Of a DNA stretch of 48,968 nucleotides, positions 1,460 through 3,975 are shown piece by piece. Position 1 is the first letter of the stretch. Each line of letters starts with the position of its first letter. The position numbers and the translations under genes were made by a program. The DNA is from Bacteroidaceae bacterium. GTDB lineage: Bacteria; Bacteroidota; Bacteroidia; Bacteroidales; Bacteroidaceae. The notes beneath the pieces were generated by a model. That model ran no database searches and had not been told where the DNA came from. It saw only the letters and a program-made list of their open reading frames with translations. The stretch is taken from positions 1 through 48,968 of the forward strand of contig JAGCFP010000072.1 in assembly GCA_017650045.1 (NCBI GenBank), given 5' to 3'.

Positions 1460-2950
1460 ATGAAAAACTTTAAGACTTTATTTGGCATGGCAGCCGTGGC
1501 TCTGATAGCCGCTGCCTGCACCAACGATGTAAGCGAGGTATTGGCCCCCGAGGCCCCGCAGCAGGGCATACCATTTGTGGCCACCCTGGCCCCGAAGTCC
1601 TTCAATGCCACCACCCGCACGCTGCTGACGGAGAACACCGACGGCACCATCAGCTCTGCCTGGCAGGTGGGTGACGAGATAACATTGAGGTACGGCACCG
1701 ATTACGCAACGGAATCCACCGCCACGGTGACGGAGGTGAAAGAAGACGGCAGCGCCACCATCGAGGCCACCTTAGAGAGTGGCATAACCGACGGTGATGA
1801 AGTGCTTCTTTGGTATGCACCTGGAAGTTTCGCTGACCAAGATGGTGAGCTGAGCAACAAGCTTGATCACCGTTTTGGTAGTGGGAAATTCAAAGTGACC
1901 GGTGGCGTGGCATCGCTTGACGGCAGTGTAACTATGAAGGCAAGTGGTTCCATCTTCAAGTTCACGCTGCAGGACTTAGGCGGCAATGTATTGAATGTAA
2001 AGGAGCTGACCATCAGCACCGAAGGTGTCGAACGTTCCTCCGTCACCCTTGCCTCTGCTGCCAGTTCATTCTACGTGGCCTTCGATGCTTTCGTGGCAGA
2101 AGATTCAGAAGTATGGTTCACTGCCACCGATGAATCAGACAATCCCTACATCGCCAAGGTCACTGCAACGAAAGACGTAGAAGCTGGCTACTACTACCAG
2201 TCCACGCTGAAGATGGCTACGCTGGGCGACCTGATGAACAGCGACGGCAGCTTCAGTGCAGGGGCAGAGGATGGCAAGACCCCTATCGGCGTGATAGCCT
2301 ACCTGGGCAACGATGCCACCGTGGAGAGCACAGAAGATGGTGGCGGCCACGGCCTGGTAATGGCTCTGGAGAACGCAGACGGTAATGTGAAATGGAGCAC
2401 CGACACAGAGACATGGCAGTTCGGTGAGAGTGCCGCAGTCACTAATGTTGAAGCCTTGCTGCGCACCACGGACGTGAGCGGCTACACCAACACCAAGACT
2501 TTGGTAGAGAAGACAGATGCCGGGGATCCCGAGGACCTATTTCCTGCAGCCTATTACGCATGGAACTATTCTGAAAAGCACTCTTCTGCTAAAGCCCCCG
2601 CAGGCACCACAGGCTGGTTCCTGCCAAGTGCGCAGCAATGGGTGAAGATGATGACAGGCCTGGGCGGCATGAGCGTGAGTGACATTAAATGGCTGTCATG
2701 GTTCGATAATAATCACACCGCTGCCGACAATTGGGAGGATGCCCTTAAGAAAGCCGGTGAGGACAACTATGACAGCATGACGGACGCTTACCTATGGTAC
2801 TGGTCGAGTTCCGAGTATAGCCAGCGCATCGCCGTGCACGTGGGTATCGACGCTACCCACACTGGCGGTGATTACGGTTTCCTCGTGGACTACGACGATA
2901 AGGACCGCACGAGTAGCCTCAGTCGCGTTCGTTCCGTCCTCGCCTTCTAA
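1460..2950 (+). CDS. Fimbrillin-like lipoprotein with C-terminal FGE/C-type-lectin-like domain, candidate DGR variable protein
   Basis: A 496-residue lipoprotein. Residues 1-20 are a signal peptide ending in the lipobox AAAC with the acylated Cys at 20, so it is probably shown on the outer surface. Residues about 35-250 resemble fimbrillin/Mfa-type adhesin domains (ATLAPKSFNATTRT start, WQVGDEITL motif). Residues about 375-496 form a DUF1566/Fib_succ_major-like domain: GWFLPSAQQW, then YWSSSEYS, then a closing RVRSVLAF. This domain has the C-type-lectin fold used by diversity-generating retroelement (DGR) targets. In the last 50 codons almost every codon is NNC or NNT, a few are NNG, and none ends in A, as expected if AAY codons in a template had been mutated at adenines. 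No reverse transcriptase or template repeat is present in the window. A non-diversifying relative of the same fold is the main alternative. Confidence 0.75.
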   Translation: MKNFKTLFGMAAVALIAAACTNDVSEVLAPEAPQQGIPFVATLAPKSFNATTRTLLTENTDGTISSAWQVGDEITLRYGTDYATESTATVTEVKEDGSATIEATLESGITDGDEVLLWYAPGSFADQDGELSNKLDHRFGSGKFKVTGGVASLDGSVTMKASGSIFKFTLQDLGGNVLNVKELTISTEGVERSSVTLASAASSFYVAFDAFVAEDSEVWFTATDESDNPYIAKVTATKDVEAGYYYQSTLKMATLGDLMNSDGSFSAGAEDGKTPIGVIAYLGNDATVESTEDGGGHGLVMALENADGNVKWSTDTETWQFGESAAVTNVEALLRTTDVSGYTNTKTLVEKTDAGDPEDLFPAAYYAWNYSEKHSSAKAPAGTTGWFLPSAQQWVKMMTGLGGMSVSDIKWLSWFDNNHTAADNWEDALKKAGEDNYDSMTDAYLWYWSSSEYSQRIAVHVGIDATHTGGDYGFLVDYDDKDRTSSLSRVRSVLAF

Positions 2951-2973
2951 GGCAGCCCCGGCACCCCGCCCAT

Positions 2974-3098
2974 CCGCTCATCCGGCAGTGGGCGCATCGC
3001 GGGCCCCTCGTCCCTCCGCTCATCCGGCAGTGGGCACATCGCGGGCCCCTCGTCCCCCCGCTCATCCGGCAGTGGGCGCATCGCGGGCCCTCGTCCCC
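2974..3098. repeat. Three tandem copies of a 42-bp GC-rich repeat
   Basis: The unit begins CCGCTCATCCGGCAGTGGGC and continues through GCGGGCCC to CTCGTCCC. Copies start at 2974, 3016 and 3058, differing at only a few bases. The array begins 24 bp after the stop codon of the lipoprotein gene. There are no spacers between copies, so it is not a CRISPR array. In the DGR interpretation it lies where cruciform or hairpin target elements are often found, but I cannot show that it has that role. Confidence 0.9.
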
Positions 3099-3256: not shown

Positions 3257-3571
3257 ATGAGAAGTAAGGCGATAATCAATAGCATCAGCAAAGCTATACA
3301 CAAGCAGGAGCCTGGAGCCACTGCTATTCTCTATGGCTCTCAGGCCAGAGGGGATGCTATGCCCGATAGCGACATTGATCTATTGATTTTGCTGGATGGT
3401 GAGCAGTTGTCTGATGAGCGCCAAGATAGAGTGGTCTCTCCACTTTATGATATAGAATGGGAAACGGGCGTTCAGATCAGTCCTATGGTGATGCTTAGAA
3501 AAACATGGGAGAATCGCCCCTTCAAGACTCCTTTCTATGTAAACGTTATCAATGAAGGCATTGAGATATGA
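3257..3571 (+). CDS. mntA: MNT-domain nucleotidyltransferase antitoxin
   Basis: A 104-residue minimal nucleotidyltransferase. The active-site signature GSQARGDAMPDSDID fits GSx10DxD, with Gly27-Ser28 and the metal-binding pair Asp39/Asp41. In characterised MNT/HEPN modules the MNT protein adds AMP residues to its HEPN partner near the RNase site and so neutralises it. That role is inferred here from family and neighbour. The start is set by the promoter at 3192-3222. The open frame extends upstream to 3113 but that stretch lies before the predicted transcription start. The stop overlaps the next start by four bases (ATGA), which indicates translational coupling. Genes of this pair are often horizontally acquired, and this one sits beside another accessory block. 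Confidence 0.85.
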   Translation: MRSKAIINSISKAIHKQEPGATAILYGSQARGDAMPDSDIDLLILLDGEQLSDERQDRVVSPLYDIEWETGVQISPMVMLRKTWENRPFKTPFYVNVINEGIEI

Positions 3572-3975
3572 AAGAGAGAATGGATGAAAACAGTAAGCTG
3601 CAGCTGATTCAATATCGCATTGAACGTGCCGAGGAGACCCTGAAGGAAGCTGATGTGATGAATAGAGAGGCTTTTTATAATGCGGCGATGAATCGGCTTT
3701 ACTATGCCTGTTTCTATGCAACGATGGCTTTACTGCTGAAACATGACATCTATACTACCACACATGCAGGTGTTAAGACAATGCTTGGACTTCATTTTGT
3801 GGCAAAAGGCATCTTGTCTAAAGAAGATGGAAAGACTTTCAATCGGCTGTTTGAGATTCGCCACAGCAGTGATTATGATGATTTCGTCTATTGCGATAAG
3901 GAGATGGTAGATACATTCTATCCTAAGGCTGAGCAGTTTATTTCTGCAGTAAAGCAGTTAGTGAAGGTAAACTGA
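3568..3975 (+). CDS. hepT: HEPN-domain RNase toxin
   Basis: A 135-residue all-helical HEPN protein of the COG1895 type. Landmarks are the N-terminal helix with AMNRLYYACFYATMALL (about residues 40-56) and the C-terminal RLFEIRHSSDYDDF. Arg93 and His99 fit the Rx4-6H RNase motif, followed by the DYDD segment found in members that are AMPylated by their MNT partner. The start overlaps the MNT stop by ATGA. It is expected to cleave cellular RNA when not modified, either as a growth-arrest toxin or in phage defence. The activity is known for the family and not shown here. A strong terminator hairpin follows at 4026-4055. Confidence 0.83.
   Translation: MKERMDENSKLQLIQYRIERAEETLKEADVMNREAFYNAAMNRLYYACFYATMALLLKHDIYTTTHAGVKTMLGLHFVAKGILSKEDGKTFNRLFEIRHSSDYDDFVYCDKEMVDTFYPKAEQFISAVKQLVKVN

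Follow-up and report, generated by a model that had tools for sequence, protein, structure and literature searches.

The window analysed here, by which we mean the whole stretch of 48,968 nucleotides, is contig C79 of a 2.27-Mb genome in 93 contigs, which is 76.62% complete with a contamination estimate of 0.64%. In the codes used below G000 is this genome, other G numbers are compared genomes and L numbers are loci in genomes. The gene under study encodes a lipoprotein-like protein, and the following features belong to it:

1460..2950, + strand: lipoprotein-like gene of 496 aa (MKNFKTLFGMAAVALIAAAC...), an open reading frame and the putative target gene
2222..2947, + strand: C-terminal FISUMP-like domain (LGDLMNSDG ... 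VRSVLAF), from hhalign and BLASTP against the L067 target
2798..2815, + strand: conserved 5' flank YWSSSE, with YW[ST]SSE present in the window gene and four relatives
2816..2923, + strand: candidate variable region core of 36 codons, none ending in A, from codon counts
2924..2947, + strand: conserved 3' end RVRSVLAF, from sequence comparison with relatives

Positions 2795-2950 hold the last 52 codons of the open reading frame, stop codon included, and the last 51 residues of the product are WYWSSSEYSQRIAVHVGIDATHTGGDYGFLVDYDDKDRTSSLSRVRSVLAF, followed by the stop. The product carries a lipobox-like ...LIAAAC at its N-terminus, which we take as the mark of a lipoprotein, and the candidate variable region (VR) sits at the very end of this lipoprotein-like frame, just as the original prediction had placed it and as is expected of the target genes of diversity-generating retroelements (DGRs). 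The DNA of the 5' flank, TACTGGTCGAGTTCCGAG, is identical in the window gene and in L061, and L060, L061 and L062 each have 20 or 21 of the 24 bases of 2924-2947; if the window gene is a DGR target, this 3' end would be the place of the homing-initiation site. A Pfam search of the window protein gave nothing above the cut-off and detected no Mfa_like domain, and the NCBIfam model TIGR02145 (FISUMP) matches it at 20.9 bits, below the curated cut-off of 41.65. PDB 4eps_A is matched by a profile built from the domain (E=1.9e-4), chiefly in the portion that precedes the variable end, and the AlphaFold2 model of the protein, with a mean pLDDT of 35.1, is of too low quality to search for related folds. 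A 42-base tandem repeat (2973-3097, three copies, 95% matches) follows closely on the stop codon, and beyond it genes for an NTP_transf_2 nucleotidyltransferase and a HEPN protein stand side by side (3257-3975), which we take to resemble an MNT-HEPN toxin-antitoxin pair. In L067 the corresponding downstream position is taken up by the template and the reverse transcriptase.

Three DGR-type reverse transcriptases of the same genus were identified by the motif GNLTSQ, which together with similar motifs we take to be a mark of DGR reverse transcriptases. L067 is the cassette in G154, L053 and L076 stand for the cassette in G153, and both genomes belong to the genus of the window. In L053 and L067 an N-rich template reading lies ahead of the reverse transcriptase and a matching variable end lies upstream; template and target differ at 27 positions in L067, 25 of them at a template A (ungapped), and at 21 positions in L053, 19 of them at a template A (gapped). 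The window domain aligns with the L067 target by BLASTP (2e-13, 29% identity) and by hhalign (98.7%), so domains like it are diversified by DGRs in this genus, and in this point the original prediction is supported. Like the window gene, the DGRs of G154 and G153 combine a FISUMP-like target domain with a VR that has no NNA codon, the likeness resting on tested homology for G154 and on the ends YWSSTE...RVRPLLAF for G153. In both verified cassettes, however, the template and the reverse transcriptase follow downstream on the same strand, whereas neither was found for the window gene.

Of 157 same-genus genomes, 25 contain a match to a DGR reverse transcriptase profile at E<=1e-30. Among 35 loci found with the profile and inspected, 16 have a GNLTSQ-like motif and eight more a variant of it; the remaining 11, which include fragments, count as DGR-type on their profile score only. 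We considered co-occurrence of the domain with a DGR reverse transcriptase across the genus as a further line of evidence and set it aside, as only four of the 12 genomes that carry the domain, counting G000, show such a match and the association is not significant (p=0.10). A stretch of the L067 cassette had no match in plasmid records.

The third-base counts given in the original prediction are exact: forty-codon stretches with 34 codons ending in C or T, six in G and none in A are present at the end of the gene. When 12,412 forty-codon stretches in 36 open reading frames chosen as likely genes were scanned, at least 34 NNY codons with no A-ending codon were found only there and in the repetitive tail of another gene (232-1260), which means that the pattern is rare and not unique. 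The latter gene encodes a DUF6261 protein (9.1e-41) whose long tail of Gly/Thr/Asp repeats imitates a VR in its third-base composition. As a control for chance we resampled synonymous codons for the same residues, drawing either on window-wide codon usage or on the usage of the gene's own upstream part. Over the 51 residues the NNY count has p = 0.0018 under window usage and 0.0008 under the gene's own, and the lack of any NNA codon has p = 0.0001 and 0.00065, respectively. For the last 44 codons, those after SSSE, zero NNA codons stand against 5.9 expected (p=0.0007, gene's own usage) and 38 NNY codons against 30.0 expected (p=0.0003). The original prediction had worried that GC-rich codon use throughout the gene might mimic the signal; since zero NNA keeps p=0.0007 under the gene's own usage, this use is not the explanation.

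Alongside the window protein we scored 31 further proteins or fragments, which makes a set of 32. This set omits G016d and a fifth G164 member, and it has a start point that is off for G016c and G187d, a short upstream part for G077 and a G160 entry that overruns the usual end. Zero NNA was found in five of the 32, namely the window gene, the DGR VRs of G153 and G154, G016b and G042b. At p(NNA)<0.05 the number rises to 12, among them G156, G007 and G187e, for none of which a DGR link has been shown, and G060a and G153np, whose genomes carry a DGR-type reverse transcriptase elsewhere; the codon signal alone is therefore weak. Raised NNY was likewise seen in G156 (p=0.0047), whose genome has no DGR reverse transcriptase match, and in G060a (p=0.0000), whose genome has one, and the same-genus relative L013 has seven NNA codons in the region. 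The window core contains no Asn and six NNG codons, so a pure AAY template would not explain it. The signature of randomised AAY codons that the original prediction read here is present as a deficit of NNA beyond chance, with the six NNG codons not fitting a pure AAY template, and the lack of A-ending codons at the end of the window gene is suggestive of a DGR but not diagnostic.

The original prediction proposed to look in the genome for a DGR reverse transcriptase and for a near-copy of the variable end that differs where the copy has A. An RVT_1 search of the genome found one reverse transcriptase, at G000:C64:25047-25673 (L001), which PADLOC assigns to type UG26 of the DRT class at 521 bits. 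UG26 is a defence-associated class of reverse transcriptases, and with this score and no GNLTSQ-like motif at its locus we rejected the enzyme as a DGR reverse transcriptase. With a DGR reverse transcriptase profile, A1, built from the three same-genus enzymes, the best match in the genome was 27.5 bits, on the UG26 enzyme itself, and none reached 1e-30; this match was listed in one of two A1 searches, both at E<=0.001, and is not DGR-level either way. The 76.6%-complete assembly thus yielded no DGR reverse transcriptase, its sole reverse transcriptase being of UG26 type.

Nor did a template emerge from blastn of the assembly or from an A-tolerant ungapped scan. The blastn search with 2741-2950 in the window's own genome returned the query itself and six short matches of at most 30.1 bits, while the same kind of search within the loci of two known cassettes recovered the templates of their VR-TR pairs at 129 and 87 bits. 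The three best short matches (C64, C89 and C84) were rejected as templates because no A-rich near-copy surrounds them, and the other three score 26.5 bits each. The L061 VR, used as a blastn query in this genome, found the window gene only and no near-copy. The A-tolerant ungapped scan, which covered 142 overlapping DNA sources, found the L067 template but missed the indel-bearing L053 template, and it found no template for the window VR. In 399 sampled genomes of the family, no more than two candidates per genome being scored, the DNA of 2741-2950 matched only itself at E<=0.001. Viral contigs held no relative by peptide patterns and no exact match to two 20-base stretches, and phage records gave no match. 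As the genome is only 76.6% complete, the absence of a reverse transcriptase and a template is no proof that the strain has neither.

The closest relatives found are L013, from the same genus, and L060, L061 and L062, and the same-genus genome G070 encodes the gene family of the window. In all four pairs with the window gene, amino-acid divergence is greater in the variable region than upstream of it. A first test of third bases seemed to favour a DGR (window-L061 p=0.02, window-L062 p=0.008), and we dropped it as evidence for the window gene because the effect vanishes when only NNY-NNY codons are compared. Restricted in this way, the window gene shows no third-base freezing against L061, L060, L013 or L062 (p=0.50, 0.19, 0.93 and 0.24), and the three pairs among L060, L061 and L062 show none either (p=0.30, 0.10 and 0.15).

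A DGR reverse transcriptase was not found in three of the four nearest-relative genomes, G070 (82% complete), G158 and G159. The fourth, G160, which is the genome of L062, has a DGR-type reverse transcriptase in a phage-like region, accompanied by its own target: at L141 6957-9599 (G160:C1) a target ends in a 113-base repeat, a second copy follows at 88% identity, and the reverse transcriptase comes next. We do not take this DGR as the source of the L062 variable end, as it sits among genes that we presume to be phage-like and its own target adjoins the repeat copy; the A-tolerant scan of the sampled DNA found no template for L062. A second copy of the VR-type sequence in G159 (C106:3364-3430, L138 1501-1567) was also rejected as a template, because it is truncated to 67 bases and contains just two AAC codons. 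This piece lies within a 71-aa open frame, and the gene that adjoins it is presumably pectate-lyase-like, judging from its translation.

Of the 19 pairs put through the NNY-NNY test, eight were positive and combine conserved third bases with changes at bases 1-2; they comprise every one of the six G016 pairs (p 0.0010-0.0152), the G042a/b pair (p=0.023) and the G187a/b pair (p=0.003). The other 11 were negative, namely the window gene with each of its four relatives, L060, L061 and L062 with one another, G187c/e and three pairs of G164 paralogues, which vary in the region without a DGR signature. The family therefore holds DGR-shaped members as well as members that vary without the signature; by codon composition the window gene resembles the former, and the pair tests cannot place it. 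The cleanest signature is that of G016 (99% complete), where four variable ends of FISUMP-type lipoproteins lie on two contigs:

L111, 14869 and 13024, - strand: G016 variable ends, third bases frozen and bases 1-2 varied
L112, 951 and about 2813, + strand: G016 variable ends, third bases frozen and bases 1-2 varied

No template was found in G016 by blastn, and its reverse transcriptases match the DGR profile weakly, at best 39.5 bits. In G042 (99% complete), two paralogues whose variable ends are DGR-like lie next to each other at L113 (G042:C7), one of them with a fimbrillin-like Mfa_like_1 domain, and the best reverse transcriptase match of this genome to the DGR profile, 36 bits, is not DGR-level. 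In G187 (56% complete) there are six family members, the signature being shown for a/b only, and no reverse transcriptase matching the DGR profile; G301 has one family member and a DGR-type reverse transcriptase. These results suggest that DGR-shaped lipoproteins occur in several genomes of the family in which no DGR reverse transcriptase is detected, and the paralogues of G016, G042 and G187 are cleaner test cases than the window gene.

On the evidence above we consider it probable that the 3' end of 1460-2950 is a DGR variable region, current or former, whose core is remote or lost. What speaks for it is the homology to a verified target, the lack of NNA codons, as in two verified VRs, the DGR profile matches in the genus, the frozen third bases of other family members and the raised amino-acid divergence of the region in all four window pairs. 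Against it stand the unfrozen third bases of those pairs, the NNA codons of L013, the G164 paralogues that vary without a signature and the weakness of the codon signal by itself; the reverse transcriptase and the near-copy that would complete the original prediction of a DGR were not found in the assembly. In this scheme an error-prone DGR reverse transcriptase would have copied an A-rich template repeat, mostly of AAY codons, in the past and possibly still does so, and the mutated copy would have been written into 2816-2923 with the conserved ends as anchors. The variable region would then encode the outward face of a tip domain of FISUMP type (C-type-lectin-like) on a fimbrillin-like surface lipoprotein. 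We infer past mutagenic retrohoming from a template of this make-up and, for the tip of the window protein, a corresponding fold, surface exposure and ligand binding. The core, that is the reverse transcriptase and the template, would not be beside the gene and may be remote, in the unassembled quarter of the genome; alternatively it may belong to a mobile element that this strain does not have, or it may have been lost, with the target left as an orphan.

It is also possible, though in our view rather unlikely, that diversifying selection acts here on an ordinary binding domain of FISUMP type and that no retroelement was ever involved. Its variation would then come from contact with ligands, phages or antibodies, and the scarcity of A-ending codons from a make-up rich in Asp, Tyr, His, Ser and Gly combined with local codon bias. 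In relatives such as G164a-c, L013 and L060 the C-terminus does vary strongly and shows no DGR signature, and the unfrozen third bases of the window pairs, the missing reverse transcriptase and template and the raised NNY of G156 and G060a all agree with such a domain. Resampling of the same residues still gives p=0.0007, however, and sister members of the family show a clear DGR pattern.

A narrower form of this preferred reading, and not exclusive of it, is that the gene is the target of an active remote DGR that diversifies it in trans now, with the reverse transcriptase and template in the unassembled 23% of the metagenome-assembled genome or upstream of position 1, past the contig end. 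We regard this as unlikely, even though the genome is incomplete and in 93 contigs, the gene starts 1460 bases from the contig end, DGR reverse transcriptase profile matches are found in other genomes of the genus, and remote targets are described in the part of the literature on T. denticola that was available to us (PMC4891356). No DGR reverse transcriptase was found in G070, G158 or G159, and that of G160 comes with its own target. L067 has its core downstream on the same strand, whereas the downstream side here holds the tandem repeat and the presumed MNT/HEPN-like pair. An assembly or binning artefact, in which a contig foreign to the bin would make the missing reverse transcriptase and template uninformative, is highly improbable: the genome is fragmented and incomplete with a contamination estimate of 0.64%, but that estimate is low, the contig is 49 kb long and carries what we take, from translations, to be housekeeping genes, and same-genus G070 encodes the same gene family.

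A more speculative proposal, which we put forward as doubtful, is that the family maintains a standing stock of DGR-type targets in genomes where no reverse transcriptase is resident, that is FISUMP pilus-tip-like lipoproteins that would be diversified in trans by a passing mobile DGR core and then frozen as a heritable repertoire, with G016, G042 and the window gene as examples. If the window gene is a relict or a target served in trans, surveys that start from the reverse transcriptase will miss it. The interest of the locus lies mainly in the several genomes of the family that have DGR-shaped targets and no detected DGR reverse transcriptase.

Our search, outside which fall most subscription papers and every bioRxiv preprint, found no paper that joins 'FISUMP' with 'diversity-generating retroelement', although 'Fib_succ_major' does appear in DGR papers. 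In the portion of their report that we could consult, Ye and colleagues list a gut-metagenome lipoprotein, SRS014459.31157, with Mfa2 and a C-terminal Fib_succ_major domain, as a DGR variable protein (PMC4159848). It resembles the window protein in being a predicted lipoprotein whose variable end is probably a C-terminal FISUMP domain, but it came from a DGR search, whereas the window gene has no template found and a FISUMP model match below the cut-off. According to the sections available of a review, type V pilus tip pilins of Bacteroides are diversified by DGRs (PMC12632263). The window protein would similarly be a tip-like surface lipoprotein, and a sister protein in G042 has Mfa_like_1, yet the window protein itself yielded no Mfa_like domain. 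DGR targets left without a reverse transcriptase and template are already known, and the window gene, on the reading preferred here, is a further case. From the parts of the T. denticola study accessible to us, the closest precedent is that of isolates lacking reverse transcriptase and TR, whose target genes are described as likely leftovers (PMC4891356). These too are targets of VR type, lipoproteins in many cases, and their genomes have no detectable reverse transcriptase or TR; the VRs of these targets were compared with the TRs of sister strains, whereas the window gene was compared with distant relatives only.
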